This document shows positions 325 to 17,885 of a stretch of 19,814 nucleotides of DNA, piece after piece. The number at the start of each line of letters is the position of its first letter. Within the stretch, counting starts at the first letter, position 1. Under the pieces are notes generated by a model, which saw only the letters and a program-made list of their open reading frames with translations, searched no databases and was not told the DNA's origin. The stretch spans positions 1 to 19,814 of the forward strand of contig DUGQ01000017.1 of assembly GCA_013331315.1 (NCBI GenBank). The letters are read 5' to 3'. The stretch is from Thermoplasmata archaeon. GTDB lineage: Archaea; Thermoplasmatota; Thermoplasmata; UBA10834. The translations under genes and the position numbers were made by a program.

Positions 325-1791
325 CTACTTCCTGTTGTAGTACTTCTCCCACTCGCCTGGCTTCGAGTCTCGGGACCTCTCGTAGCTGTGCTTGACTCCT
401 CGCTTGGGCTTGTCCTTGCCAGAGGATATCACCGCCAAGGCAACTATCACTATGGCTACGACAATTGCCGCAAGGCCGATGAACACGATCGGCAGGCTAC
501 TCTCCCGGACGAAAGAGACGTCCACTAACGCCTCGGACGAGAAAGTCGGGTCGTGGACTATCAGACTTCCGCCAGGGAAGGTCAGGCCAGTCAGTGCCAC
601 GAATCCATCGAACCTCGTCTGCCCTTCGCCGAAAGCGAGAACCCTGTGCCCTGCCATCACCTGGGCTTTGACCATGGCCGGCTCCCCGTCCACCATGACA
701 TCGTCGACCCACGTCAGCACCCCGATCTCCGTCCAGTCGCTCCCGAAGGTCAGCCTTGTCGCCGTGAGCTGCCTGACGGCTGGCAACGGTCCCGTCGTAT
801 CGTTGACCTCGAGGGTTCCTGCAGACGACTCGCAGGTCATCACGCCAACGGCGTTCATGTACGTCAACAGCCGCGTGTCCATCCATTTCGCCATCAGTGG
901 CGGGATCAAGTTCCCCACGATGTTCTGCATCTCCATGATCAGCGTCGGGTTCTCGTTGGCGGGGTCGAAGTCCCAGCCTTCTATCGTTTGATCCCACTTG
1001 ACATCGTACTTAATCAAGTTCCCGACTATCTGAATGTCGTCGATCCTCTCTGGTAGTATCAATGTCGAGGCGCCCAGCGGTCCGGTCGTAACGGTTATCC
1101 TCCACTGAGGCAGCGAGGCGTTGTCAACCTGGACTGTGGTCGCCTCCAGGTTGAAAGAGAGTCTGAAGGCATTCAAGACGCCGTCACCTACCGCCTCGGT
1201 GGCGTTCTCCGCGAGGAGAACATAAGGCAGATTGGTCGCTGCGAGGTCGAAACTCCACGACCTGTTGTCTTCCACTTCCTTGAACTCGACCTCACTCGCG
1301 TTCCAAGCGGTGTTGAGGTCTACCTTCTTGATTATCGGCTCAGGTCCGACATAGGATGTGAAGTCGCCTTCCATCTCGCTGTAGGTCCTCTGATACTGCA
1401 GGGCTCCGTTGTCGTCCACATCGTCGAACTCGACTATGCTGTCGAGCTTGACGGCGTACATCGTGTAGACCTTCATCGTGTAGTTGTCCTGCAGCAGCTC
1501 GCCATCGCCATCGTACACATCGGCGACGCCAAGGTACCTAGCCTTGATCACGACGAAGTAGACGTTGTTCTGAGTCTCCTCTGTTCCCCATACAATCCCG
1601 AATGCCGCGTCGGTGCCGAACTTCACGAAGAAGTGGTCTCCGCCACCGAGCGCCGTTGTCGCCCCATCCTCAGTGGTGAGGTCATCGGTCAGCGAGACCC
1701 CTGCAGAGGCTGTGGCCGCGACCATGAGCCCGCTGAGTATGAACATGGCCATCGACGCTAGTGCGACTGTGCTTTTGGCTGTCTTATTCAT
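325..1791 (-). CDS. Secreted surface protein with C-terminal membrane anchor, function unknown
   Basis: A 488-residue protein. The start is set at the ATG at 1789-1791, which has a strong GGAGGTGA site 7 nt upstream (1799-1806). An in-frame ATG at 1857 is rejected because it precedes the TATA box at 1845-1853. Residues 1-31 are a clear signal peptide (MNKTAKSTVALASMAMFILS..., likely cleaved after ATASA). Residues 32-430 look beta-rich and acidic, with scattered N-glycosylation sequons and no enzymatic motif that I recognise. Residues about 432-457 are a transmembrane helix (IVFIGLAAIVVAIVIVALAV), followed by a 31-residue basic cytoplasmic tail ending EKYYNRK. This is the usual layout of an archaeal cell-surface protein held by one helix. 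It is transcribed divergently from the large STAND regulator and may be its target, which is inference only. Confidence 0.8.
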   Translation of the reverse strand: MNKTAKSTVALASMAMFILSGLMVAATASAGVSLTDDLTTEDGATTALGGGDHFFVKFGTDAAFGIVWGTEETQNNVYFVVIKARYLGVADVYDGDGELLQDNYTMKVYTMYAVKLDSIVEFDDVDDNGALQYQRTYSEMEGDFTSYVGPEPIIKKVDLNTAWNASEVEFKEVEDNRSWSFDLAATNLPYVLLAENATEAVGDGVLNAFRLSFNLEATTVQVDNASLPQWRITVTTGPLGASTLILPERIDDIQIVGNLIKYDVKWDQTIEGWDFDPANENPTLIMEMQNIVGNLIPPLMAKWMDTRLLTYMNAVGVMTCESSAGTLEVNDTTGPLPAVRQLTATRLTFGSDWTEIGVLTWVDDVMVDGEPAMVKAQVMAGHRVLAFGEGQTRFDGFVALTGLTFPGGSLIVHDPTFSSEALVDVSFVRESSLPIVFIGLAAIVVAIVIVALAVISSGKDKPKRGVKHSYERSRDSKPGEWEKYYNRK

Positions 1792-1844
1792 TCTTCCTTC
1801 ACCTCCCTCTCGGAAGGATTGTCGAGGTTCTACTCCGCTGGTAT

Positions 1845-1853
1845 GTATATAAA
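1845..1853 (-). promoter_or_regulatory. TATA box of the surface-protein gene
   Basis: The minus strand reads TTTATATAC, a near-consensus archaeal TATA box. A start about 25 nt downstream (near 1823) leaves a leader of roughly 30 nt carrying the GGAGGTGA site. This fixes the translation start at 1791 rather than 1857. Confidence 0.75.
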
Positions 1854-1954
1854 CCATTAGGGCTGTTTTGCACTAGTATTCTCAACGGTGTGGCTGCCAT
1901 TATGGATGGGACCCGAAAGGGGTATCTATCACCATCATCGTTCGTGGTGGTCGG

Positions 1955-4705
1955 ATGACGCGCCTCGTGATGTCCCAAAATGAGAGGCTGCTCCTGAACC
2001 TCCTTGAGAATGACAGGTACCGCGACTCGGCCGAGGTCCCCCTGGCCGTTTCCCAGGAGGGCATAGCCAAGGTGCTAGGGACCCAGGTCCACAATGTGTC
2101 CAGGGCGTTGTCTTCGTTGGAGTCAGACGGTCTGGTCTCAGACAGGCTGGCACATGTCCGTGGCGCTCCGCGGCGACGTCGAGCGTACTTCTTGACGGAT
2201 AAAGGGAGACGAACTGCCGAGGGCATTCAGGCCAGCCTGATGAAGGCCAGTGTCTCCTGGAACGGCGAGGGCGGGTTCGAGGAGGTGTTGGTATCCGAGG
2301 CGGTCAGGCGAGCCTCTCTGGCAAGCGGCCGCACCGTCTCCCTGCTCGAAGTCGCAGACCTCGCCAGGGACGGAGCCCCGCTCTCCCCTTCCGTCCTTCT
2401 GGAGAGGGCGGAAGTGGTCGAGAAACCGCGCACGGTGGAGAAGTCCATCGGCCGGCCGATGGTCGAACAGTTCGTCGGAAGATCAGGGGCACTCGGCGAG
2501 CTGATGGATGCCCTTGACAAAGGGGTCGTCTCGACAATACTGGTCCATGGCATGCCAGGAATTGGGAAGAGCACCCTCCTATCCAAGGTCTTCGACGAAC
2601 TCGCCGGCAAGCGGTCACTCTTCTGGTACACCTTGAGCTCTTGGGATTCCGAGAGGGGCTTCGCCGAACACCTCGCGTCATTCCTGTCAGCTAGCGGATG
2701 CCGCTCGCTAGCGCGGTCCCTCAAGTCGGACGTCCCCGTGTCCGACTTCTACCCCTCACTTCTTTCCGACTTGAGTTCCATGGACGCCGTGTTGTTCATT
2801 GACGACGTCCACAAAGCGCCTGAGACGTTCGAGCTGATAATGTCCATGCTCATTGACGCTGCGAGGATATCTCCCTCGGTCCAGTTGGTGCTCGTTTCGA
2901 GAACGGTCCCGGAGTTCGTCCCGAAGGATATCAGGCAGAGCTTTCACATGGAACTCAAGGAACTCGACCGTGAGAGCGCGGGACAGATAGTCGCGTCCGC
3001 CTCCGACGGAGTGCGGGAGGAGATTATCCGGTGGGCTCACGGCAACCCGCTACTCCTGACCCTCGTGGCGCGAAAGGGGGTCGCCGCGGAGAGAAGGGAC
3101 GTGATCGACTACATCGACAGCGAAGTGTACTCTGGCTTATCCGGGGACCAACGTGGCCTGCTGGAACTCCTTTCTGTCTTCAGACACCCTGTGCCTCTGG
3201 AAGTCCTATCTGATCGTGACAGAGAAGTCGCGACTTCTCTGAAGGGCATGTCCTTGATATCCGAACAGGAGAGTGGCATCTGGATTCACGATCTGCTGAG
3301 AGATTACTTCTCATCACGGCTCAGCTCCGATCGTCGCCGGCTGGCTCACCTCAAGGCTGCGGAATGCTGCACCCCTAGAACCGAGCCAGAATGGGATCTG
3401 GAGACTCTCTTCCATCTCGTCGAGTCTGGCGACTCAACGAAGGCGGCCAGGTTCGCCATCGAGAATTCCGACGAGTTCGTCGAGGCCTTCCCACATGAGT
3501 CTTCTTCCCTCGTTGCCAGGATCGACGAGAGCTCTGTCTCGGCGGAAATCCTCCCGCGGCTACTGTTCACGATCGCCGAATTGGCGGAGACTGAGGAAGA
3601 CTTCGAACGCGCGATCTCCGCTTACGAGAGAAGTGTCGCCACACTCGCTGACGATGACCCTGTTCGCCCTGTGGCCCTTGAGTCCCTCGCGAGGCTGCAG
3701 GCGGAGAACGAGCAGTGGACGAAGGCGGTCGAGGCCCATGAGCGGGCAAGGCAGATATACGAGCGGACAGGTGACTCAGAGGGGCAAGTCAGGGAGTGGC
3801 TCAACCTCGGCATGCTGCTGAAGCGAAGGGCGGACGTCGACGGGACCAGAGAAGCGTACGCGAAGGCCCTCTCCATAGCGGCGAGGGCGGAGAACCGGTC
3901 CGCCCAAGCGGCCTGCATGAACAACATAGCTATGGTGGAGTGGGAGACGGGGTCCCCCGGAGACGCCGAGAGGATGTTCAGGGAATCCATACGTCTCGCT
4001 CACGCAGCCGGGGATAACATGGGCGAGGGGCGTGCGCTGGAGAACTTCTCTCGGTTCTGCAGGTCGTATCACAGGCTCGAGGAAGCCGCCAACCTGCAGC
4101 TGGAGGCGTCAGCAGCCTACGCTCGAGCCAGCGACGTAGTGGAGTCCAAGCACGCCAGATCTGCGCACTGCGAGTTGCTTTGGGAGTTGGAACGGCATGA
4201 AGAAGCCATTTCGACATGCAGGTCTGGACTCTCGTCTCCATCTCTTCGTCGGAGGCGCGGGCTGTTCAAAGACAGCCCACTATGGGATTCTGGCGACTTC
4301 GCTCTCATGCTGACCCTCGTGGACTCCCTCAGACTGGCGGGCGAGTACGACGAGGCGCGAGAGGAGCTTCGCAAGTACGCGGCGGAGGCCGAGAGAGCCA
4401 ACGACCAAACGCTCCTAGCCAAGGGGAAGATGGAGGCCGCGATGATAGCCGAGAGCGCGGGCGAATTCGAGGAATCCCTGGCCCGTCTGCGCGAGGCAGA
4501 ACAGATACTCATAGAGATGGTGGACCGTGAAGGGCTCATAGCCGTCTACCTCAGGCTTGGCACGGTCGAAGAGAAGATGGGAGACATCGACTCGGCCCGC
4601 ACCCACTACTTGAGCGCGGCCCGCCAGGCAGAGATGGCTGGCAACCACAGAGCGCTCGCCATCGCTAAGGATAGTATGGAGTCCGTCTCCAGGCCATGCG
4701 CCTAG
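1955..4705 (+). CDS. Winged-helix / STAND ATPase / TPR regulator
   Basis: A 916-residue signal-transduction protein. Residues about 8-90 form a winged-helix DNA-binding domain (helix-turn-helix around SQEGIAKVLGTQVHNVSRAL, basic wing GAPRRRRAYFL). Residues about 172-400 are a STAND-type P-loop NTPase: Walker A GMPGIGKST at 199-207, Walker B LFIDD at 280-284, a sensor Arg in LVLVSR ending at 316, and the GNPL motif at 363-366 typical of this class. A second winged-helix region follows (WIHDLLRDYF near 443-452). Residues about 530-916 are helical TPR-like repeats for ligand or protein sensing. In MalT-like STAND proteins, ligand binding to the repeats drives ATP-dependent assembly, and the same logic is likely here. 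An ATG at 1970 is an alternative start. GGTGG at 1946-1950 supports 1955. The signal and target genes are unknown; the divergent surface-protein gene is the first candidate. Confidence 0.85.
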   Translation: MTRLVMSQNERLLLNLLENDRYRDSAEVPLAVSQEGIAKVLGTQVHNVSRALSSLESDGLVSDRLAHVRGAPRRRRAYFLTDKGRRTAEGIQASLMKASVSWNGEGGFEEVLVSEAVRRASLASGRTVSLLEVADLARDGAPLSPSVLLERAEVVEKPRTVEKSIGRPMVEQFVGRSGALGELMDALDKGVVSTILVHGMPGIGKSTLLSKVFDELAGKRSLFWYTLSSWDSERGFAEHLASFLSASGCRSLARSLKSDVPVSDFYPSLLSDLSSMDAVLFIDDVHKAPETFELIMSMLIDAARISPSVQLVLVSRTVPEFVPKDIRQSFHMELKELDRESAGQIVASASDGVREEIIRWAHGNPLLLTLVARKGVAAERRDVIDYIDSEVYSGLSGDQRGLLELLSVFRHPVPLEVLSDRDREVATSLKGMSLISEQESGIWIHDLLRDYFSSRLSSDRRRLAHLKAAECCTPRTEPEWDLETLFHLVESGDSTKAARFAIENSDEFVEAFPHESSSLVARIDESSVSAEILPRLLFTIAELAETEEDFERAISAYERSVATLADDDPVRPVALESLARLQAENEQWTKAVEAHERARQIYERTGDSEGQVREWLNLGMLLKRRADVDGTREAYAKALSIAARAENRSAQAACMNNIAMVEWETGSPGDAERMFRESIRLAHAAGDNMGEGRALENFSRFCRSYHRLEEAANLQLEASAAYARASDVVESKHARSAHCELLWELERHEEAISTCRSGLSSPSLRRRRGLFKDSPLWDSGDFALMLTLVDSLRLAGEYDEAREELRKYAAEAERANDQTLLAKGKMEAAMIAESAGEFEESLARLREAEQILIEMVDREGLIAVYLRLGTVEEKMGDIDSARTHYLSAARQAEMAGNHRALAIAKDSMESVSRPCA

Positions 4706-8685: not shown

Positions 8686-8854
8686 CTCAAGTCACCTCAG
8701 CCACTAACTCGTTAGGAGAACACAGGTTCCTGACTTAACGCTTTTGGCTGTTGAGGGGCCCCGCCCCCAGCAACATCTTGCCTATTGTTGCCATTGAGCA
8801 TGTCCCATGCCTGGTGCTGAAATACACCATAATCGATACGTCGAAGGTAAGCCG

Positions 8855-9589
8855 ATGTCCGAAGATCCCACCATATTGCTGTCCGCTCTCAAAGAAGAAG
8901 CCATCGGAACGCGATTTCGGAGCAGGAAGAATAGCGTCTACTTGAGTGCATACAATGGCGAGCTAGTGGTGGTCAAGGAGTTGCACGACAGCCAAACGGC
9001 GTCGAAGGAACATGCCCTTCTCTCCTTGTGTGCCGCGGGAGGTGTTCCGGTCCCTCGCCCGTTGGCTGTCATTGGCAGCGCGTTGGTGCTTGAATACGTT
9101 GAAGGTGGGACCGTGGCTGAGTTGATGGATTCCTTATGGTTGAGGAAAACCTCTCCCTCAGCGGATGAACTTGTCATGCTCGCCGATGTCGCATCGTCCC
9201 TGGGTGAGTGGCTGGCGGGTTTTCACAGTCTTTTCGAGTTCCGGGTTGTGAGGGGAGACGCGAACATGAGGAATTTCATCATGCGAGGCCGCTCGGTGGT
9301 CGGCATTGATTTCGAGGAGTCGAAGGAGTTCGATATCATTGACGATCTTGGACAGATGTGTTCTAGCGTCCTGAGCATGAATCCCATGTTCACCACCGAG
9401 AAGCTCGATTTCTGCAGGAAGATGTCTGACACCTACTTCGGCTTGGTCGGAACAGATCGATCGAACGCCCTCAACTCAGCGGTCGCCAGAGCACTCAGAT
9501 ACTACGCTGCTTTCCGGGACGACGGTCACAGGATGATAGGATTCGCCTCGTCAATCGAGAAGTCAGGTTTTCTCTCAGAGAAGGAGTAG
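8855..9589 (+). CDS. Small Bud32/APH-like protein kinase-fold phosphotransferase
   Basis: 244 residues from the ATG at 8855 (GAAGGT site at 8843-8848); an in-frame ATG at 8807 has no ribosome site. The kinase fold is recognisable from the order of its motifs: VVVKEL with the nucleotide-binding Lys at 41, a likely helix-C Glu at 52, a hinge-like VLEYVEGG (78-85), the catalytic loop RGDANMRN with Asp135 and Asn140, and the metal-binding IDFEES with Asp152. The spacing and small size resemble Bud32/RIO or aminoglycoside-phosphotransferase-like proteins. The usual His of HGD is Arg133, and DFG is DFE, as in many APH-type enzymes. The substrate (protein, lipid sugar or small molecule) is unknown. 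It is divergent from the channel gene, and its 3' end overlaps the converging ecfT gene by 15 bp. Confidence 0.75.
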   Translation: MSEDPTILLSALKEEAIGTRFRSRKNSVYLSAYNGELVVVKELHDSQTASKEHALLSLCAAGGVPVPRPLAVIGSALVLEYVEGGTVAELMDSLWLRKTSPSADELVMLADVASSLGEWLAGFHSLFEFRVVRGDANMRNFIMRGRSVVGIDFEESKEFDIIDDLGQMCSSVLSMNPMFTTEKLDFCRKMSDTYFGLVGTDRSNALNSAVARALRYYAAFRDDGHRMIGFASSIEKSGFLSEKE

Positions 9590-10336
9590 CTGTCCCCCCG
9601 AGATGCACCTGTCCAAGATTGCGACGGCTGTGGCTAGCCCTCCCATGGCCAGGATGGCTACCCCATCAGCCGTCGAAGGTCTCAACGGGTGCAGCAGCGT
9701 GCGCTTCGGATTGCTCCCGAACCCTCTTCCCGTCATCGACGCCGCAAGCGAATTCACTTTGAACATCGCCGAGAAGAACATTGGCAACGCAGTGTATCTT
9801 GCAGACCGGATTAGCCCCCTTGGACTCCCATCCAGTCTCAATCCCCTGATCGTCTGTGCCTCCCTGACCGAGTTCAGCTCGAACTGGAATGTCGGGACGA
9901 ACCTCATGGCCAGCGCGGGCAGATATGCGTATCGATACGGAACGCCAATCGACATCAGCGAGGCAGACAACTCGGAAGCCTTTGTCGTCCCAACCAGCAT
10001 CCAAGACATCATGATCAGGCAGAGGAACTTGCCTGCAATGGTTACCCCATTCGATATCCCTCCCGCCGTCACGGAGAGTATGGTCGTCGAGAAGACGGTC
10101 TCCCCTGAATGGTTGAAGATGATCTGCGCGGCGAATATCGCGAAAGCGAACCCTATGACTCCTTTTGTGAATATGCCCCTTGCCTTGAAATGCTGCTTCG
10201 CCATCATCACTACAACGACCATTCCCAGCATGACGATTGGTGCGCTGATCGTTATCACCAGGACGGACGCAATGACAAGCATCACTACCTTGGCGACAGG
10301 ATTCAGTCTTCCCGCCCGATCTGGTCTACTCTGCAT
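9575..10336 (-). CDS. ecfT: ECF transporter transmembrane component (EcfT/YkoC-like)
   Basis: A 253-residue membrane protein started at the ATG at 10334-10336, where N-terminal MQSRPDRAGRLNP fits EcfT proteins. It has several hydrophobic helices (for example VAKVVMLVIASVLVITIS and TKGVIGFAFAIFAAQIIF). Both ATPase-coupling motifs are visible: EAQTIRGL (159-166) and ASMTGRGFG (199-207), corresponding to the two Ala-Arg-Gly type motifs of EcfT that grip the ATPase subunits. Its start overlaps the end of the ATPase gene by 11 nt, just after an 8-G tract that may serve as ribosome site, so translational coupling is likely. It is the last gene of the five-gene operon. The length agrees with YkoC of the ykoEDC-type importer as I remember it (about 254 residues). 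Its 3' end overlaps the converging kinase gene by 15 bp. Confidence 0.88.
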   Translation of the reverse strand: MQSRPDRAGRLNPVAKVVMLVIASVLVITISAPIVMLGMVVVVMMAKQHFKARGIFTKGVIGFAFAIFAAQIIFNHSGETVFSTTILSVTAGGISNGVTIAGKFLCLIMMSWMLVGTTKASELSASLMSIGVPYRYAYLPALAMRFVPTFQFELNSVREAQTIRGLRLDGSPRGLIRSARYTALPMFFSAMFKVNSLAASMTGRGFGSNPKRTLLHPLRPSTADGVAILAMGGLATAVAILDRCISGGQLLLL

Positions 10337-11801
10337 CGGAGCGCCCCCCCCGTGAAACCGCAGCCCAGCACGTCTCAGGAACCTCGTCAAACGGGCCGGA
10401 AGCCACGATCCTGCCCTGGCTCATGATGATCACATGGGTGCAGAACCCTCTGGCGAACTCCTGGTCGTGGGTGACGATGACGATTGTTGCCCCCCTCTTC
10501 TGGAGCCTCTCGAGAACCTCTGTAATCCTCTCTGCGTTCCCTCGGTCCTGCCCAGCGAACGGCTCGTCCAAGAGCAGGATATGGGGGGCGTGAGATGACC
10601 CAGAATGGATGTTGACCCGTCTCTTCTGGCCGAAGCTGAGGCAGTGAGGGTGAACGTATCTGATCAACCCCTCACGCTCCTCGAAATCCTTGGTGAACGC
10701 CTCCGCCGTGTCGAGCGGAGCATTGAAGTTGCGCGGAGCGAAGATCATCTCTCCCTCCACAGTATCCTCGAAGATCTGGTGGTTTGGGTTCTGAAAGATC
10801 AGACCGACGTCTCTGCCCAGAGTCCACGCATCCAGCTGGCATCCGGGAGTGATTCTGTGGCCGCGGACCGCCACCTCTCCCTTCTGGACACTCTGAAGTC
10901 CCGTGAGATGTCTCAGCACCGTCGTCTTGCCAGCGCCGTTCTCTCCCATGAGTGCGACGACGGCGCCCTTGTTGATTCTGAACGACACGTCGTCGAGAAT
11001 CATACAATCGTCGACTTCGTATCCCAGTCCCTTCACTGAGATGACGGCCTCTCTAGAGTCACATGATGGACGTCGGCTGTTGAGAGGGACGAAAGCTTCT
11101 TCTCTCAGACGACGGAAGGCCTCGCTTCCCCTGCTGCAGTCCTCCTTCACCCTTCCGCCGGAGAGGACGATCACTCTTCCGACCATGTCAATGAACTCCC
11201 TGATGCGGTGTTCGACTATCACCAGCGTCAGTTCGGTCCGCGACCTCATGCTATCTATTGCGTGGATGACCTGGCCCACCGACCTCCGGTCAAGGTTGGC
11301 GGTTGGCTCGTCGAGTATCAGAAGCTTCGGCCCCACCGAGAGCATTGAGGCGATAGCGACCTTCTGCTTCTCCCCACCTGACAGCGTGGAGAGCCTGCGG
11401 TCTCTCAGATGGGAGGCCTTGACCCTCGACAGCGACTCCTCCACTACTCTCTCTATCTCCGATCTCTCGAATCTGAGGTTCTCTGGGCCGAAGGCGACCT
11501 CCTCCTCGACGGTCTCGGTGCAGAATTGAGTCTCAGGGTCCTGCTGGACCATGCAGGCAACGCCTGCTACGTCGCTGGGATCGGAGTAGAACCTACCGTC
11601 CAGGGCGATGCTCCCGGAGATGTCGGCCGGGATGATATCGGGGATGAACCCACACACCGCCTGCATGGCAGTGGACTTCCCCGATGCGCTGTCCCCCGCC
11701 ATCAGGACGAAATCTCCTCTGTCTATGCTGAGGGTCAGGTTGTCCAACGCAGGTTTCGACCTTCCCCTGTATCTGACGCAGAGATTCCTTATGTCGAGCA
11801 T
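10326..11801 (-). CDS. ECF transporter double ATPase (EcfA-EcfA fusion, YkoD-like)
   Basis: 491 residues containing two ABC ATPase domains in tandem. Domain 1: Walker A GDSASGKST (36-44), Q-loop region VQQDPETQ, signature LSGGEKQ (140-146), Walker B LLILDEPTAN (160-169), switch His198. Domain 2: Walker A GENGAGKTT (286-294), FQNPNHQ, signature LSFGQKR (388-394, with Phe for Gly), Walker B ILLLDEPFAG (408-417), switch His445. The PETQ and NPNHQIF Q-loops are typical of ECF ATPases, which bind EcfT rather than a classic permease. A fused pair of about 490 residues matches YkoD. The gene starts 1 nt after the stop of the S-component gene, with GTGAGGT in front, and overlaps ecfT at its end. It powers the importer from the cytoplasm. 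A run of eight G lies six codons from its stop. Confidence 0.92.
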   Translation of the reverse strand: MLDIRNLCVRYRGRSKPALDNLTLSIDRGDFVLMAGDSASGKSTAMQAVCGFIPDIIPADISGSIALDGRFYSDPSDVAGVACMVQQDPETQFCTETVEEEVAFGPENLRFERSEIERVVEESLSRVKASHLRDRRLSTLSGGEKQKVAIASMLSVGPKLLILDEPTANLDRRSVGQVIHAIDSMRSRTELTLVIVEHRIREFIDMVGRVIVLSGGRVKEDCSRGSEAFRRLREEAFVPLNSRRPSCDSREAVISVKGLGYEVDDCMILDDVSFRINKGAVVALMGENGAGKTTVLRHLTGLQSVQKGEVAVRGHRITPGCQLDAWTLGRDVGLIFQNPNHQIFEDTVEGEMIFAPRNFNAPLDTAEAFTKDFEEREGLIRYVHPHCLSFGQKRRVNIHSGSSHAPHILLLDEPFAGQDRGNAERITEVLERLQKRGATIVIVTHDQEFARGFCTHVIIMSQGRIVASGPFDEVPETCWAAVSRGGRSDAE

Positions 11802-12881
11802 CTACCTCACTTCGACGACCACTATTCCTTCCACCCAGTATCCGCCTTCGTACGAGTCAGCGACGATTCTGAACGAGTCTCCCTCGTCCACGATAATCAT
11901 GCCATCGTCAGCAAGGACGTCCGCAAGATTGAAGACGACATAGTATCCGTCGCTGGCTGTCACGACGACTTCCGTGGCCCCGTCCTCTGGGTCAGCATGA
12001 AAGAGCACGGTGGACAGAAGGACTCCAGTGTAGTTCCTCGGGGGCACGTACGTCACGGTCCCGACGAGCTCCGCATTCACCACCACCTCGTAATCCACGA
12101 AATCTTCGTACGAGAAATCGTAGGGGTTCTGGACGTTCCCCTCTACGCTTATCGTGTCCCCTCCAGGGAGGACGAACACGAACATGAAATAGTAGACAGC
12201 TCCAACTGTGAACACGGCAAGGAATGATGCGACTGCTGCAAACGAGACAACCCTCCGCCTTCTTGTCCGCAGCTCCCTCCTCCAGGAGTGATCCTCCGCG
12301 GACATGCGGTCAACGAACATCTCGTCCTTTCCACCGACGACTCCGGCTCCTTCGAGTGCCTCAAGCATCTCGACCGAGAGCCATCCTCCGAATATCATCC
12401 CGGACGCACAGGCGAGCATGCACAGCATAAGGATGAGAATCCACGGAACACCTGCGAAGAAGAACGCCTGAAAGACGATGACGCTAATAGCGGCAGACAA
12501 CCCCCCCGCCGCTGAGAACGGGACATAGTCTCTCCGCTCCTTCGTCTTGTCGCTGAAGAGAACAAGGTCCACGACCAAGCCCTGGACGAGCGAGACAACG
12601 ACTATGACGACTCCGTGTGTGCTTCCCGTGAATAGCTCGACCACTCCCTTCAGGAAGCCCGTGACTGTCCCCGCCCCCTTCCTCCTGGTAATCCCTGTCG
12701 CAAGGATGATCCAGACAACGTGAAGCCCAGCCATGAACTGCCCTGCCCCAAATGGGACCCCGACGACGTGATTCATCAGGTTGCCGAGGTATCCGACGTA
12801 GGTGGAGAGTACGCCGCCTAGTGCGGACAGAAGCGCTATGGTGGCCAGGTCTTTCGTGGATAACATCGGCTTCGACTTCAT
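11802..12881 (-). CDS. ECF S-component (YkoE-like) fused to an extracellular SUOX-like domain
   Basis: 359 residues from the ATG at 12879-12881, overlapping the stop of the phosphoesterase gene as ATGA; GGAGGTGAT lies 10 nt upstream. Residues 1-176 are a multi-helix substrate-binding S-component (LSTKDLATIALLSALGGVLS, then GVPFGAGQFMAGLHVVW, and FLKGVVELFTGSTHG) resembling YkoE, the hydroxymethylpyrimidine/thiamine S-unit. Residues about 177-210 are a basic cytoplasmic linker. Residues 211-238 are an extra transmembrane helix. Residues 240-359 are an exported beta domain of the sulfite-oxidase molybdopterin-binding type: GNVQNPYDFSYEDF, YTGVLLSTVL, VVTASDGYYVVF, then FRIVADSYEGGYWVEGIVVVEV. 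I see no Cys where the molybdenum ligand would be. The transporter function is well supported by the adjoining ATPase and EcfT; the ligand and the role of the extra domain are inferred. Confidence 0.82.
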   Translation of the reverse strand: MKSKPMLSTKDLATIALLSALGGVLSTYVGYLGNLMNHVVGVPFGAGQFMAGLHVVWIILATGITRRKGAGTVTGFLKGVVELFTGSTHGVVIVVVSLVQGLVVDLVLFSDKTKERRDYVPFSAAGGLSAAISVIVFQAFFFAGVPWILILMLCMLACASGMIFGGWLSVEMLEALEGAGVVGGKDEMFVDRMSAEDHSWRRELRTRRRRVVSFAAVASFLAVFTVGAVYYFMFVFVLPGGDTISVEGNVQNPYDFSYEDFVDYEVVVNAELVGTVTYVPPRNYTGVLLSTVLFHADPEDGATEVVVTASDGYYVVFNLADVLADDGMIIVDEGDSFRIVADSYEGGYWVEGIVVVEVR

Positions 12882-14374
12882 TGGGCGGGGATCACCTCCA
12901 GAGTCAGGACACACTTGACCCATCTCGCGCCTGCTGAAGGATACTGCGAGTATCCTTGCCCCTCGTAGGAAGTCGCTTCACAATCCGCGTTGCTGTACAG
13001 TCCGTCGGGTGCGAGCATGATCAGTTTGGGCCCGTCCCCCCAGTCTGGGACGACGACCGATTCAGTGGCGAGGGCTATCAACATCTCTCCTTGGACCTCG
13101 CCCCAGGCCTCGTTTGGATACACGTTCAGGTACCCGAATTCCTGGGTATAGCCATCGGACGAGGTGACCCTTAGGACGTCCTCTTCACCCATCCCACCGA
13201 TGCTGTCAATGAGATGCCTAAGAAGCACTCCTGAGTAGTTGCCCATGCCGCCAACGTTGCCGTAGAAGTTCTCGTATGACGAGTAGCCGTGAACCTGATC
13301 CAGGGCGAACAACTCATCGTGGCTTACATTCCTCGCCTCACCGGTGCCCGAGACGAGCGTGATGTGTGGCAGGGAAGACGTGTCCACTGTGACGTTGACT
13401 CTGTCGTAGACGCATTCCCCCTGTGAGTTGATCGTCACGTTGACGAAGTGGTGCTCCCCCGTGACGAGGGCGCCACCTGCTCCCCCTGTAATGATTAGGT
13501 CCGTGTCTCCGGTCACCGTATGATTGAAGGCATGGATGTGCCCAGCGAACACCATGTCTACACGATCAGATTGAACGAACTTCGATACTCTGGCACATGA
13601 ATCAGGAAAGAGGGTATGGTTGTCGCCGAATGGGTCGACGAACGGCGCATGGGTCACCAATGCCTTGCTCTCAGCCCCAACGAACTCCTCCCTCATCCAC
13701 AACACCTGCTCGTCCGTGATGTTTAGGTCAGATGAGTCGACAACGACGAATCTGACGCCTCCGAAGTCGAAACTGTATTGCGTGGATCCGAAGCGTTCCT
13801 GGTAGTTTGAAGTGCCTTCGTACATGACGTCATGATTCCCAGGAGTCGCATAGATTGGAACAGGCGATTCTGACAGGACCTCCTGCACCGCAGCGAATTG
13901 CTCGTCAGTTCCCGATGGCGTCAGGTCCCCACAGAGCAGGGCGAACTCACATCCTCTCAGATGCGGGAGTATGGCTCCCAGGACCTGGTTCGCACCCTGG
14001 CTGTCCCCCATGACCGCGAAAGTGAAGTTGCTCTTGAACGGCGGGATAAAAAACACCGACAGCGGATCACCGTCACAGCGGAATGACACGGAGGTGTCGT
14101 CCACCGTCTCGGCTTCTGAGACTCCTTCGATTGTGGATTCAGTCAAGCAGTTCGTCAGGATTACCCGTCCGTCGAAATTGTCTATGTCGATAACGACCTC
14201 AGGCTCGGTGCACCATACGCAGACCTCATCGTCGGACTTTGAGAGCACTATTCCTCCATCCACCGTGATCGTCGGGTCAGGACGAAGGATGACCCCGAAA
14301 CTGTAGGCTGCGAAGAAACCAGCGACTACTACTAGCAAGGACAATGCTGCAGCCGCCACCAGCTTCCTCGACAT
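12878..14374 (-). CDS. Secreted calcineurin-like metallophosphoesterase with C-terminal SUOX-like domain
   Basis: 498 residues. Residues 1-30 are a signal peptide or anchor (LVAAAALSLLVVVAGFFAAY). A short Cys-containing domain follows (to about 110). Residues about 116-310 hold the metallophosphoesterase motifs in order: GDSQG (123-127), GD at 149-150, GNHD (179-182), THAPF with His242, and GHIHAF (278-283), giving a two-metal active site. Gln in the first motif, where His is common, is the only deviation. Residues about 335-497 repeat the SUOX-like pattern of the neighbouring genes: YSGVLLRHLID, VTSSDGYTQEF, then GARWVKCVLTLEV. It begins 4 nt after the preceding gene and overlaps the S-component gene by 4 nt. 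The enzyme should act outside the cell on a phosphoester, perhaps removing phosphate from the transporter's substrate, which is inference. Confidence 0.85.
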   Translation of the reverse strand: MSRKLVAAAALSLLVVVAGFFAAYSFGVILRPDPTITVDGGIVLSKSDDEVCVWCTEPEVVIDIDNFDGRVILTNCLTESTIEGVSEAETVDDTSVSFRCDGDPLSVFFIPPFKSNFTFAVMGDSQGANQVLGAILPHLRGCEFALLCGDLTPSGTDEQFAAVQEVLSESPVPIYATPGNHDVMYEGTSNYQERFGSTQYSFDFGGVRFVVVDSSDLNITDEQVLWMREEFVGAESKALVTHAPFVDPFGDNHTLFPDSCARVSKFVQSDRVDMVFAGHIHAFNHTVTGDTDLIITGGAGGALVTGEHHFVNVTINSQGECVYDRVNVTVDTSSLPHITLVSGTGEARNVSHDELFALDQVHGYSSYENFYGNVGGMGNYSGVLLRHLIDSIGGMGEEDVLRVTSSDGYTQEFGYLNVYPNEAWGEVQGEMLIALATESVVVPDWGDGPKLIMLAPDGLYSNADCEATSYEGQGYSQYPSAGARWVKCVLTLEVIPAQ

Positions 14375-14378
14375 GTCC

Positions 14379-15896
14379 TCACTCTGGCAAGTCGACTAGG
14401 TCTATCCTCACGACGCCCTTGATGTTGTAGGATCCCGGCAGCCCCTCTCCTGTCAGCTTCAACGGGTAGCTGTCCCCAGACAGGTACTCACCGTCGAAGG
14501 TGAGCGCGACTATGAGTGAGTCGTTGTACTCGACATCCGCTGCGGACAAGGTCTTGTTGTACTCATCTGAGCCAGTGACCTTCACTCCGTAACCTGCCTC
14601 AGCGAGGCTCTCGTTGAACAGCCAGTGAGAGGAGTCTGCTCCATCCACGAGACCCACGAGTATCCAGAGCGGTATACCGGCATAGCTGTGCTCCACCGAG
14701 TCCTCGGTGTAGTTGTAGTAGCTGACGTGCAACTCCTCGTCGCAGTTGAACAGCGCCACGAAGTCCCACTCCGTGAAGGTCGCATCGGTGAGGCCGGCGA
14801 GTGTCAACTCCCAGGCGGGGTTTTCTTCGAACCCTTCCATGGCTATCCTGACGATGCCCCTGACCTTCTGGGAGCCGGCCAAACCGTCGCCGACGATTCT
14901 CAACGGCCAGCTGTCATCTTCTAGGGCGTTTCCGTCAAGCTTGTAGGCCACCATTATGCTGTCGTTTCTGGAAACTTGCTCGGAGTCGAACAACGCGCAG
15001 TAGCCGTCCGATGCCGTCACATTCACGGTGTAACCTCCCTCTGCTAGTGCGTCGTTGAACATGTAGTGCCCGTCGGGGGCGTCCCCTTCGTCAACGGCTG
15101 ACAGCAGGACCCAGAGCGGCACGCCCTCGTAGGAGTGGTCACCATCTTCGTCCGTGTAATTGTAGTACATAGTATGGTAGTAGCACGATGCAAGCGACTC
15201 AAAGGTCTGGCAGTCCATGTCCATCGAGGTTACGCCGACAAGTTCCAGAGTCCAGTCCCTGACGTATTGGGCGACGTTCAGCTCCTTCACCATCTTCGCC
15301 CAGAAATGTCCGTCCGTAATCGGGGTCTCCTCGTCATCGACAATCACAATGCGGAGGCTGTCGTAGGCCAGGCGTTCCCCGTCCTCTTGGTAGGCCAGCA
15401 TCATGGTGAAATCGTCCGGTCCGAGAAGATCCCCTTCGAAGTCATAGATCGGGAAGGTGCCGTTCTCTACTTGGCCGGAGTTGTAGGTCATCTCGTAGCC
15501 GTCCCACGCCACCGTACCAAGACTGTAATTGTCTCCGTCGTATACGAGGTCCACCAGCTCTCTGATCGGTACCCCGGTGAAATTGAGCGGGCCGACAATC
15601 GTCCCAGTGGACTTCATATAGTATCCTGAACCCTCGTAGGACTGCATCTCGGCCAGATCCGAAATCGTAAGATTGACGGACTCCCCGAATCCAGAGACCG
15701 TGATTGCCACTGTCACGTCGGGCGTCTCGTTGTCCGTCCCCTGAATGGCCAGATATCCAATTGGCACGCTCAACAGGATTGCTGCGATTGCTATGAGGGC
15801 GATGGCCTTCGTCCGCCCAAGCCCTTTCGCGGCCTTGGGTGGCCGTGTTCCGTTCCCATGCCCCGGCTCTCCATCGATCTTGTTCTCCTCCGCCAT
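14379..15896 (-). CDS. Membrane-anchored protein with three SUOX-like (molybdopterin-fold) domains
   Basis: 505 residues from the ATG at 15894-15896, preceded by AGGGAG; a start at 15914 is possible, but longer versions would cross the TATA box. The N-terminus is hydrophilic, then residues about 30-50 form a transmembrane anchor (AIALIAIAAILLSVPIGYLA). Outside are three related domains: 62-220, 216-354 and 362-502. Each has the pattern of a strand, Y/F-x-GVP-L-x-x-LL, a DGY turn, then a final VRGIVRI-type strand. Domains 2 and 3 are clear duplicates (YYNYTDEDGDHSYEGVPLW against YYNYTEDSVEHSYAGIPLW). The fold is that of the sulfite-oxidase molybdopterin domain, but the Mo-ligating Cys position carries no Cys in any copy, so a binding rather than redox role is likely. 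First gene of the operon with the phosphoesterase and ECF importer. The fold assignment rests on motif pattern only. Confidence 0.78.
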   Translation of the reverse strand: MAEENKIDGEPGHGNGTRPPKAAKGLGRTKAIALIAIAAILLSVPIGYLAIQGTDNETPDVTVAITVSGFGESVNLTISDLAEMQSYEGSGYYMKSTGTIVGPLNFTGVPIRELVDLVYDGDNYSLGTVAWDGYEMTYNSGQVENGTFPIYDFEGDLLGPDDFTMMLAYQEDGERLAYDSLRIVIVDDEETPITDGHFWAKMVKELNVAQYVRDWTLELVGVTSMDMDCQTFESLASCYYHTMYYNYTDEDGDHSYEGVPLWVLLSAVDEGDAPDGHYMFNDALAEGGYTVNVTASDGYCALFDSEQVSRNDSIMVAYKLDGNALEDDSWPLRIVGDGLAGSQKVRGIVRIAMEGFEENPAWELTLAGLTDATFTEWDFVALFNCDEELHVSYYNYTEDSVEHSYAGIPLWILVGLVDGADSSHWLFNESLAEAGYGVKVTGSDEYNKTLSAADVEYNDSLIVALTFDGEYLSGDSYPLKLTGEGLPGSYNIKGVVRIDLVDLPE

Positions 15897-15926
15897 GCGA
15901 TTCTCCCTCGTCATGCTCGAGTAAGC

Positions 15927-15955: not shown

Positions 15956-15997
15956 GGTGTCGAAAGGCCAAGCCTCTCCTCTGGGCTGGATAGCACG

Positions 15998-16005
15998 TAT
16001 ATATC
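15998..16005 (+). promoter_or_regulatory. TATA box of the fused permease gene
   Basis: TATATATC preceded by CACG. The predicted start is near 16027, giving a leader of about 23 nt with GGAGGTGG at 16035-16042. It supports the TTG start at 16050 over the GTG at 15957, which lies upstream of this box. With the minus-strand TATA at 15946-15955 it forms a compact divergent promoter region. Confidence 0.65.
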
Positions 16006-16049
16006 CAGATAAGACGATTACATTTGCAGCTGTCGGAGGTGGCGTGGCA

Positions 16050-17885
16050 TTGAACGAGTCTGTCAAGTACGGCCTTAGGACCGCAGCGGTGTTTCTTCTC
16101 GCGGTATTTGTCATCCTTACAGTGATGTTCGTGATTCTGAGGGTAGCCCCGGGAGACCCGGAAAGACTTGCCATGCCCCGGGATCCCGGCCAGCAGGAGT
16201 ATCCCGACGGGGTCATCGAAGAGATAAGAGCGTTGTTCGATGAGCCGTTGTCTGCCCAGTATGTTAACTTCATCCAGGACATGCTCTCAGGGGAGTTCTA
16301 TTACAGCTTCACGTTCCATACGGATGTCTCCGATTTCATATACGACTATATGTGGCGGACAGCCGCTCTGTTCGCGGCAGCGCTTCTACTGTCAGTGACG
16401 CTCGGCTTCCTTTACGGGTTTCTTAGCTCGCGTGTCCGGAAACACGTTCCCCGTCAGGTGGTATCCCTTGTTCCTCTGTTGCTGATGTCCGTCTCCGTGC
16501 TGAGCGTGGCATGGATCGGCTTTCACCTCACCGCAATCGAGGGTGACATATTCCCGTCGTCCCCGTTCCCAAATCCCGGCTCGTCTGATGACAGTCTGAT
16601 GGTTGATTTGTTCGGTAACTCACAGCTGGCCCATTCCATACTGCCAGTGCTCATCGTGAGCCTGGTATCGTTTGGTGCGCTCGCTCTGGTCATGAGGGAC
16701 GGGTATCGCTTGGGTTGGTCCCTCAACGGGTGCCCCGAGGAGAGGCCATCCTACCGCTCGGACGGGCTCTTCGTCTCCTTGCCTCTCATACAGCTGTTCG
16801 TCGCATCACTGATCTGTTGCATCATTGTTGCTGAGTATCTGCTGTCCTTCAGGGGTCTGGGTTGGCTGCTAATCGAATCGATGAACAGAAGGGACTACTT
16901 CCCGCTTCAAGCATCCTTCTTCTTGATTGCAGTCATGGTGTTCGTCGCCAACATCGTGTTGTACGTGTTGGTGACAGCTCTCAGGCCGAACAAAGGCTTT
17001 GACATGCCTCGGCAGGAATGCCCTCCAACTGGGCCAGTCGTGTCATATGGGAGCACGAAGAGCAGTGCAGAGAAGAAGGGTCTTGCCAGGGCCGCGTTGG
17101 CTGAAGGGTCTTCCATCTGCAGAGACTACGTTAAGAGCCCGGTCGGGCTTGTCTCTCTCGCCGTCTTCGCAGCCTTGTTCGGTGTTGCCTTGGCTGGCAG
17201 TCAGCAGGACATGGCCTTCGACCTGGCCCGCCGCCCGATCCCCTACGATCCGTCGACACTCTTCCTGATCGGTGCGGTCGCACCGATGACGATGACATTG
17301 CTGGGAGGCCTGTTGGCCTTTGTCCTGTCCATATTGCTCGGCATCGCATTCGGGGTCTCGATCCGTTTCACCCACGCCTTGATGCAGGGTGTGTTTCACG
17401 GGATCGTCTCGATGCCTATCGTGCCCTTCGTGATGCTGATCGCCTTCATCAGTGAAGAGGCCTGGCACAACGAACTCACGGTCGTCCCAAGGCTCGCCTT
17501 GCTGCTCTCGCTTCCGCTGGTTGTGCTTGTTGCCAATTCCCTGCTACTCTCAAGGCAGCGCTTGTGGTCTATGGGTCGCGATCCAAAATCAATAGCCGTC
17601 CGTGACTCTCTTCCGAAGGTCTTGTCATGGAGCCTGTTCGGCCTGAAGTACTCGTTGGTCGCGGGGCTGTCCGCAGTGGTGATGTGCGACTTCGTCGGTG
17701 TGACCCATTGGGAGAGCTGGGGCCGTAGTCTGAACCTGGTATTCGAAGGCGGACTCATGATGACTTCGGGAGGATGGGACTATGTGTTGCCTGCCCTGAT
17801 CGGGATATCTCTCCTTCTCTCGAGCGTGTTCCTTATCCTGGATACTCTTGAGAACATAATCAGACGTCGGCACGGACCGGTCTAG
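16050..17885 (+). CDS. Fused OppB-OppC-like ABC permease
   Basis: 611 residues from TTG 16050, which has GGAGGTGG 7 nt upstream; the resulting N-terminus MNESVKYGLRTAAVFLLAVF and then VILRVAPGDP matches DppB/OppB proteins. Residues 1-312 resemble the B subunit, ending with EYLLSFRGLGWLLIESMNRRDY (261-282), the familiar GLG...RDY region. Residues about 313-350 are a hydrophilic linker. Residues 358-611 resemble the C subunit: KSPVGLVSLAVFAALFGVAL, LGGLLAFVLSILLGIAFGV, then GGWDYVLPALIGISLLLSSV and a basic tail. One chain thus replaces the usual heterodimer. The cytoplasmic EAA loop of the B half (normally RAKG-like) is degenerate, reading MRDGYRLGWSLNGCPEERP. No ATPase or peptide-binding protein is adjacent. 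It is divergent from the SUOX/ECF operon and could share its regulation. The substrate is unknown. Confidence 0.8.
   Translation: MNESVKYGLRTAAVFLLAVFVILTVMFVILRVAPGDPERLAMPRDPGQQEYPDGVIEEIRALFDEPLSAQYVNFIQDMLSGEFYYSFTFHTDVSDFIYDYMWRTAALFAAALLLSVTLGFLYGFLSSRVRKHVPRQVVSLVPLLLMSVSVLSVAWIGFHLTAIEGDIFPSSPFPNPGSSDDSLMVDLFGNSQLAHSILPVLIVSLVSFGALALVMRDGYRLGWSLNGCPEERPSYRSDGLFVSLPLIQLFVASLICCIIVAEYLLSFRGLGWLLIESMNRRDYFPLQASFFLIAVMVFVANIVLYVLVTALRPNKGFDMPRQECPPTGPVVSYGSTKSSAEKKGLARAALAEGSSICRDYVKSPVGLVSLAVFAALFGVALAGSQQDMAFDLARRPIPYDPSTLFLIGAVAPMTMTLLGGLLAFVLSILLGIAFGVSIRFTHALMQGVFHGIVSMPIVPFVMLIAFISEEAWHNELTVVPRLALLLSLPLVVLVANSLLLSRQRLWSMGRDPKSIAVRDSLPKVLSWSLFGLKYSLVAGLSAVVMCDFVGVTHWESWGRSLNLVFEGGLMMTSGGWDYVLPALIGISLLLSSVFLILDTLENIIRRRHGPV

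Follow-up and report, generated by a model that had tools for sequence, protein, structure and literature searches.

An archaeal ECF cassette with repeated SUOX-like domains, a probable importer of a molybdopterin-type pterin

The closest described systems are YkoEDC, a thiamine or hydroxymethylpyrimidine (HMP) importer of the energy-coupling factor (ECF) type from Bacillus subtilis, and PruR, a protein of the sulfite oxidase (SUOX) fold that, as described in passages of PMC13259868, binds pterins in the periplasm without a molybdenum-ligating cysteine and is the signalling partner of DcpA/DTB regulators. We analysed 19,814 nucleotides of a Thermoplasmata archaeon (contig DUGQ01000017.1; "the window" denotes this whole stretch), whose relatives are Thermoplasmata or Euryarchaeota, and found a gene cassette in which homologues of YkoEDC are joined to repeated SUOX-like domains. 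The cassette is most probably a group I ECF importer for a molybdopterin-type pterin of the tungsten (or molybdenum) cofactor. The evidence computed here comprises its architecture, the fold of its domains, the conserved linkage of its genes, the proximity of riboswitches in bacteria and co-occurrence with the aldehyde:ferredoxin oxidoreductase (AOR) family and with loss of MoaA, MoaC and MoeA.

To our knowledge, no importer of a molybdenum or tungsten pterin cofactor has been characterised in any organism, and no report of a molybdenum cofactor (Moco), molybdopterin or tungstopterin importer of this kind was found among the literature matches listed. Caenorhabditis elegans takes up dietary Moco by a membrane-crossing mechanism that a section of PMC9793310 calls unknown, and one sentence of PMC12282271 speculates that type 11 secretion proteins may act in molybdopterin uptake. 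Parts of PMC11733289 suggest hosts as the source of the cofactor for epibiotic DPANN archaea and report MoeA to be missing in most members of three Thermoplasmatota orders.

Architecture of the cassette

The original prediction was of five closely packed minus-strand genes for a YkoEDC-like ECF importer, a phosphoesterase and five exported SUOX-like domains (three, one and one). All five open reading frames (ORFs) are present. Read leftwards, they code for an anchored protein of three SUOX-like domains, a metallophosphoesterase and a YkoE-type S component that each end in one SUOX-like domain, a double ECF ATPase and EcfT. The gene set also includes a convergent kinase gene, which that prediction did not have:

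14379..15896, minus strand: anchored triple SUOX-like (PruR-like) protein with one N-terminal membrane helix; alternative ORF starts at 15914 and 15971
15267..15704, minus strand: SUOX-like domain 1 of the triple protein (own profiles, alignment)
14808..15248, minus strand: SUOX-like domain 2 of the triple protein (own profiles, alignment)
14385..14807, minus strand: SUOX-like domain 3 of the triple protein (own profiles, alignment)
12878..14374, minus strand: calcineurin-like metallophosphoesterase with N-terminal hydrophobic stretch and C-terminal SUOX-like domain (PF00149, 1e-13)
12887..13360, minus strand: SUOX-like domain of the phosphoesterase (own profiles, alignment)
11802..12881, minus strand: YkoE-type ECF S component, a further helix, then a C-terminal SUOX-like domain (ABC_cobalt, PF09819, 8e-19)
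11805..12152, minus strand: SUOX-like domain of the S fusion (own profiles, alignment)
10326..11801, minus strand: double ECF ATPase, two ABC domains per chain (ABC_tran, PF00005, 3.5e-52, two stretches)
9575..10336, minus strand: EcfT (CbiQ family) transmembrane coupling protein (CbiQ, PF02361, 5.7e-27)
8807..9589, plus strand: small APH/RIO/Bud32-like kinase, convergent with ecfT (PF01636, 1.2e-6; PF01163, 1.5e-5)

The junctions along the cassette, computed as +4, -4, 0 and -11 nucleotides (nt), are as tight as had been described. The triple-SUOX gene stops at 14379 and the phosphoesterase gene starts at 14374, leaving a gap of 4 nt; the latter stops at 12878 and overlaps by 4 nt the S gene, whose start at 12881 gives the 359-residue form found in database copy P0001; the S stop (11802) and ATPase start (11801) have 0 nt between them; and the ATPase stop (10326) and the EcfT start (10336, the 253-residue start) overlap by 11 nt. 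From the opposite side, the kinase gene enters ecfT with a 15-nt overlap. The predicted YkoEDC-like importer is borne out by the S, double-ATPase and EcfT domains and by homology to YkoE, and dedicated S, A, A' and T components encoded in one operon place the cassette with group I ECF systems. The double ATPase matches ECF_ATPase_1 at 6e-93, marginally below the cut-off. The S fusion is 76% identical to its copy in locus L002, and closer copies, up to 89%, are present in the protein data.

The Pfam family Oxidored_molyb (PF00174) matches the triple protein at E 1e-14 in two stretches only, misses its cut-off in the S fusion (21.1 against 24 bits) and gives no match to the phosphoesterase tail. 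Single-domain profiles iterated on the fetched loci recover the other four window domains at E <1e-18 (four profiles), and the predicted three, one and one domains are homologous by this measure. The model of the triple protein (predicted local distance difference test score, pLDDT, 84.6) has a helix at residues 34-59 followed by beta-rich domains; in Foldseek it matches sulfite dehydrogenase (9.7e-7) and PruR (7kom; 6.5e-6, TMt 0.73). Structure comparison of the models yields a SUOX-like fold, not an unrelated one, matching both Moco-binding enzymes and a pterin-binding protein. The single SUOX-type domain combined with export, as in PruR, is likewise found, export being indicated by membrane helices in the models. 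As first proposed, the exported domains are likely ligand-capture modules. Their number ranges from one to nine per gene across loci.

A D-G-Y motif is retained in the domains, as is a near-C-terminal Trp in several classes. The SUOX-like profile lacks the stretch that holds the Cys of SorA, and class alignments contain no conserved Cys at the Mo-ligating position in the S-fused and phosphoesterase-fused classes. Column 22 holds a Cys in 32% of repeat-type domain copies, among them window domains 2 and 3; the Cys of domain 2 (residue 244) lies directly after a helix and not at the end of the next strand, and both are judged not equivalent to the Mo-ligating Cys. The phosphoesterase-fused class has a conserved insert of its own (S-N-x-D-C-x-x-T-S ... 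S-A-G-x-R-W), with a Cys that is 87% conserved; S-fused domains have no such insert.

Conservation, riboswitches and cofactor genes

One genome per species was scanned with the fused query, and the best 80 of 129 relatives were fetched as loci (L labels). The S gene, mapped in 79 of the 80 (not L078), is SUOX-fused in 79/79, a figure that is not an unbiased fusion frequency, since the fused query selects for fusion. An ECF ATPase is among the next two genes after S in all 68 loci that are long enough. Another SUOX-domain gene lies within seven genes of S in 76 of the 79 mapped loci, upholding the expected linkage of SUOX-like with ECF genes, and a phosphoesterase gene does so in 62. Where a locus extends more than 4.5 kb to each side (39 loci), another SUOX gene is present in 39 cases, EcfT in 38, the phosphoesterase in 31 and the kinase in 23. 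A kinase homologue, assigned by BLASTP clustering, accompanies S at a distance of up to six genes in 37 of the 80 loci. It is at +3 in 22 (19 of these, the window counted, on the opposite strand); 11 loci, all Asgard, have it at -2 on the strand of S, and five have it elsewhere within this distance.

Archaeal loci with the S-SUOX fusion come from Thermoplasmata and from Thor-, Hermod-, Heimdall- and Lokiarchaeota, and bacterial ones from Bipolaricaulota, Acetothermia and many Bacillota, including Syntrophomonas, Pelotomaculum, Thermovorax and Anoxynatronum; among the carriers are the strains Thermovorax subterraneus DSM 21563 and Anoxynatronum buryatiense Su22. SUOX-only matches in genomes without the fusion were not counted as the system. 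Six such stretches (L081-L086) were inspected: L081, L082, L085 and L086 encode SUOX-domain proteins of 345-352 residues distant from ECF genes, and in L083 and L084 the mechanical ORF picker gave no SUOX gene, having probably preferred longer ORFs of the opposite strand. The single SUOX-domain matches in these last two (G196:C1:224356-224751 in L083; G090:C1:21004-21462 in L084) are from genomes with AOR and without MoaA or the S fusion, which may use another cofactor route.

Some loci have S-layer-domain proteins beside the cassette (L032 was scanned). In the Bacillota loci L039, L046, L063 and L066 the SUOX genes are preceded by an ExbB-like gene (MotA_ExbB, 2.8e-10 in L063), accompanied in L039, L046 and L066 by a gene for about 110 residues, as if an energised surface step were involved. 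Pelotomaculum-type loci contain a PBP_like_2 solute-binding protein with DUF364 (L035) or TrmO_N with FmdE (L059), neighbours that we take to be of the tungstate/molybdate type and count in favour of a cofactor importer. ABC permease and ATPase genes lie near the cassette in L035, L059 and L068.

The window and 39 loci, 35 bacterial and four archaeal, were scanned with Rfam at the gathering score. The 39 loci yielded 22 copies of RF01055, the Moco/tungsten-cofactor aptamer, two tRNAs and one thiamine pyrophosphate (TPP) aptamer. All 22 RF01055 aptamers share the strand of the cassette, and they are spread over 15 of the 35 bacterial loci. Sixteen stand directly ahead of SUOX, phosphoesterase, S or kinase genes (about 85 nt from the phosphoesterase in L041, 60 nt from S in L059), four ahead of solute-binding or ABC genes adjoining the cassette (L033, L035, L052, L059) and two elsewhere in the locus (at 15218 in L029; 1.9 kb before the first cassette gene in L050). 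ORF starts were set mechanically, and in L044, L052, L069 and L072 the aptamer overlaps them. In L029 the aptamer is followed by the kinase, the SUOX genes, the phosphoesterase and S, A and T, and in L068 by S, A, T and the kinase; the presence of the kinase in these riboswitch-headed sets, although as a degenerate copy in L029, supports its link to the pathway. By contrast with RF01055, no TPP riboswitch was found upstream of the cassette in the window or the 39 loci; the single TPP aptamer, in L078, sits about 1 kb ahead of S but on the other strand and is directed away from it.

The P3 stem is absent in all six RF01055 alignments displayed, and passages of PMC2408646 tie the P3-lacking form to the tungsten cofactor. 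They also describe three P3-lacking Moco aptamers in Syntrophomonas wolfei before a seven-gene operon with "other genes of unknown function", genes that could be those of the SUOX-repeat/ECF cassette. The main text of PMC2408646 has no mention of ECF, cobalt or sulfite oxidase, and the sections of PMC3766115 at hand name no such ECF/SUOX target for the Moco/tungsten riboswitch.

From the 80 loci we took 49 carrier genomes (G labels): 16 Thermoplasmata/Euryarchaeota, 10 Asgard archaea, 20 Bacillota and three other bacteria. AOR (PF02730) is present in 48, in up to 12 copies, while MoaA (C-terminal domain) is found in 18, MoaC in 17 and MoeA in 19. All 29 carriers outside Bacillota have AOR, and 28 of them have none of MoaA, MoaC and MoeA; three of these 28 are chromosome records (L003-L005), and missing contigs are therefore an unlikely cause there. 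Carriers would thus use tungsten/molybdenum-pterin enzymes yet, outside Bacillota, mostly seem unable to make the pterin. The one non-Bacillota carrier with the three proteins, G014, is also the only one of the 49 with WtpA over the cut-off, beside which moaA, moaE, moaC, mog and moeA were read from its ORFs. Among the 20 Bacillota, MoaA is present in 17, MoaC in 16 and MoeA in 18; G042 has AOR and none of the three. MoaE was found in nine of the 49 carriers, three being archaea without MoaA; its matches in Bacillota are weak (5/20, E 1e-6 to 1e-8), and its absence there is therefore uninformative.

The association extends to broader samples. Among 200 genomes from the class to which G001 belongs (Thermoplasmata, judging by its known members), the S fusion occurs in 24 (the SUOX-only matches of G090 and G196 excluded), AOR in 88 and MoaA in 106. 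The fusion is present in 23 of 41 genomes with AOR and without MoaA, in 1 of 47 with both, in 0 of 59 with MoaA alone and in 0 of 53 with neither (Fisher p 5e-18, and 4e-9 within AOR-positive genomes, kinship ignored). In 195 genomes of the Asgard phylum, with S fusions counted at E <1e-50 and weak matches to the S part alone (36 genomes) taken as other YkoE-like S components rather than carriers, the fusion occurs in 46 and MoaA in 79: 45 of 116 genomes without MoaA and 1 of 79 with it carry the fusion (p 2e-11, kinship ignored), and that one (G252) rests on a MoaA match below the cut-off. Since all 16 Thermoplasmata and 10 Asgard prior carriers are in the samples, carrier frequency is no estimate; by hand count, the newly found carriers are AOR-positive and MoaA-negative in 8 of 8 Thermoplasmata and MoaA-negative in 35 of 36 Asgard genomes. 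Riboswitches, AOR without MoaA, MoaC and MoeA, and concentration in AOR-positive, MoaA-negative genomes all indicate that the cargo is the tungsten/molybdenum cofactor or a precursor, not thiamine. The "pterin-like" ligand of the original prediction holds as a class and is narrowed to the molybdopterin cofactor.

Proposed import route and competing readings

The S component is homologous to YkoE by its PF09819 match, alignment and structure comparison. The YkoE thiamine contacts Tyr46, Trp49, Glu77, Gln95 and Asp131 map to A51, H54, E82, Q100 and Q138, with an inferred offset of 2 between chain and paper numbering, so that two of the five are kept. E82 and Q100 are invariant in a 37-row S alignment (Q100 below 90% in a wider one) and correspond to the contacts with the pyrimidine, Glu77 and Gln95. 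The pterin ring has a 2-aminopyrimidine face that resembles the pyrimidine of thiamine. The YkoE cavity is small, 545 cubic angstroms (PMC5037267, in part), which points to a single dephospho-pterin as cargo.

Molybdopterin carries a terminal phosphate ester. The phosphoesterase translation holds the motifs GDSQ, GDL, GNHD, THAP and GHIH, which are typical of the family, and the originally proposed role of a phosphatase as processing step is retained as probable. The window kinase has the core RGDANMRNFI ... GIDFEE, and motif alignment of its homologues gives a shared (R/K)GDxxLRNFI...GxDFEE-like core, with the Gly altered in L035, L039 and L068; the kinase has no PDB sequence match and no PHROG match.

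From these parts we infer direct pterin binding, an order of steps, the substrates of phosphatase and kinase and a possible metal on the cargo. Outside the cell, the SUOX/PruR-like domains of single- and multi-domain anchored proteins would bind the pterin and hand it on towards the SUOX-like domain fused to S. On the economical reading, the exported phosphoesterase would take off the phosphate ester; the YkoE-like S component, EcfT and the double ATPase would together import the dephospho-pterin in neutral form, and in the cytosol the APH-like kinase would restore the phosphate. The occurrence of several SUOX domains on one surface protein suggests, by analogy, a relay like that of heme NEAT domains. 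MoeA and WtpA, the one tungstate-transport protein surveyed, are both absent in 25 of the 26 archaeal carriers, and for this reason the cargo may already carry tungsten. More tentatively, and with somewhat less than even confidence, we suggest that tungstopterin is a traded "vitamin", and that many AOR-using Asgard archaea and Thermoplasmata are obligate auxotrophs fed by neighbours through a SUOX-fold relay and an ECF pump.

Several observations weigh against import of a molybdopterin-type pterin. The window and the four archaeal loci gave no Rfam match, and 20 of the 35 bacterial loci, many being short contigs, have no riboswitch. The L029 kinase, in a riboswitch operon, is degenerate, the core GD being lost (LGEVHLRHFI). 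MoaA is kept in 17 of the 20 Bacillota carriers, where the system is therefore not a simple replacement, and the Bacillota carrier G027 has neither AOR nor MoaA, MoaC or MoeA. G011, G015 and G016 have MoaE without MoaA, MoaC and MoeA, which could reflect import of cyclic pyranopterin monophosphate (cPMP) there or a repurposed MoaE. The co-occurrence p values ignore kinship, and on a tree built from 79 S proteins six changes or more are needed to account for the MoaA state of 48 carriers, thus several but few independent events. Eighteen of the 41 AOR-positive, MoaA-negative Thermoplasmata do not have the system, and another route or missed genes must therefore exist. Finally, passages of PMC13259868 judge the PruR site likely too small for the larger Moco.

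This last point bears on the best-surviving alternative, namely that the cassette imports another pterin (tetrahydropterin, or a breakdown product of folate or methanopterin) or senses pterins, the molybdenum/tungsten link being indirect. PruR prefers tetrahydromonapterin (PMC13259868, in part), and the D-G-Y motif and near-C-terminal Trp of the domains would suit such a ligand; nevertheless this alternative does not predict Moco/tungsten riboswitches, AOR in 48 of 49 carriers or concentration in genomes without MoaA, and we regard it as unlikely.

Still less probable is a thiamine/HMP importer like YkoEDC itself, with the SUOX-like domains as accessory thiamine capture, which the original prediction had offered as one ligand. 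The S component is YkoE-like with both pyrimidine contacts kept, and ThiC is absent in 10 of 10 Asgard and 15 of 20 Bacillota carriers. However, Trp49, Tyr46 and Asp131 are replaced by H54, A51 and Q138, TPP control of the cassette was not found, and ThiC is present in 14 of the 16 Thermoplasmata carriers (19 of 49 overall, with 5/20 in Bacillota and 0/3 in the others). Thiamine would also leave the Moco riboswitches and the MoaA/AOR pattern unexplained. On riboswitches, ThiC and pocket residues we rejected it.

An equally small chance attaches to uptake of tungstate or molybdate, as oxyanion or metal chelate, with SUOX-like domains that bind metal and not pterin. Moco riboswitches control Mo/W ion transporters as well (PMC2408646, in part), they head solute-binding and ABC genes beside the cassette in the four loci named above, and, with WtpA over the cut-off in a single carrier, some tungsten source is needed. 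But ion import alone is no help to genomes without MoaA, MoaC and MoeA, the S component is of the vitamin type, the phosphatase and kinase have no obvious role with an oxyanion, and a conserved Mo-ligating Cys is missing.

Least credible of all, and rejected for want of the catalytic Cys, is that the five domains are active secreted molybdoenzymes of sulfite or sulfoxide type that merely happen to be encoded in the operon of a vitamin importer. They have the fold and the Pfam family of sulfite oxidase, and some repeat-type copies have the column-22 Cys, but the SorA Cys stretch is absent from the profile, the Cys of domain 2 follows a helix instead of ending the next strand and the domains are single, tandem or transporter-fused.

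Elsewhere in the window, divergent from the triple-SUOX gene, 15957-17885 (plus strand) encodes one chain with OppB-like and OppC-like permease halves (weak PF00528/PF19300; Opp4B 2.8e-23), which we excluded from the system because L001 and L002 have no gene of the same size at that place. At 1955-4705 (plus strand) is a 916-residue STAND-type regulator with a winged-helix N terminus, an AAA_16/NB-ARC NTPase and tetratricopeptide repeats, with homologues at the L003 and L005 loci, and at 325-1857 (minus strand) a seemingly exported 510-residue protein that has a hydrophobic stretch at its C terminus and matches nothing in Pfam or NCBIfam at E 0.1.

Significance and comparison with known systems

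Import of a molybdopterin-type pterin, if true, would supply a missing kind of nutrient transporter, in microbes that need the cofactor but seemingly have no genes to make it. It would name a transporter family, add a new substrate class for ECF importers and give a function to SUOX-fold domains without an active site. It would also predict that Asgard archaea, to which eukaryotes are related, and uncultured Thermoplasmata depend on the cofactor: cultures may require a source of molybdenum/tungsten pterin.

Compared with YkoEDC (YkoE, 5edl), the cassette has a homologous S component to which a helix and a SUOX-like domain are added, and its gene set also includes the phosphoesterase, SUOX-repeat proteins and the kinase. 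Three of the five thiamine contacts are changed and TPP control is not shared; instead, Moco/tungsten riboswitches lie near bacterial copies. With PruR (7kos, 7kom, 7rkb) the SUOX-like domains share the fold and the lack of a Mo-ligating Cys, and differ in being repeated and fused to transporter and phosphatase. The PruR pterin site includes Tyr104, Asn/Asp102 and Trp160; in the cassette domains, conservation was seen at motif level, for D-G-Y and, in several classes, the near-C-terminal Trp. Unlike PruR-DcpA operons, the Pfam-scanned window genes include no cyclic-di-GMP or sensor-kinase domain. The Moco-domain fold is shared with the sulfite oxidase/dehydrogenase family (SorA, 2blf; SoxC, 2xts; MsrP/YedY, 1xdy), from which the cassette domains differ by the absence of a conserved catalytic Cys and by a transport, not redox, neighbourhood. 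The Moco/tungsten riboswitch regulon (RF01055) is the regulatory counterpart, with an aptamer near 15 of 35 bacterial copies. The NEAT-domain heme relay (Isd) of Gram-positive bacteria likewise supplies an ABC-type importer from small binding domains that stand in tandem on anchored surface proteins; fold and ligand differ from those of the cassette, and the likeness, drawn by analogy, is one of mechanism.

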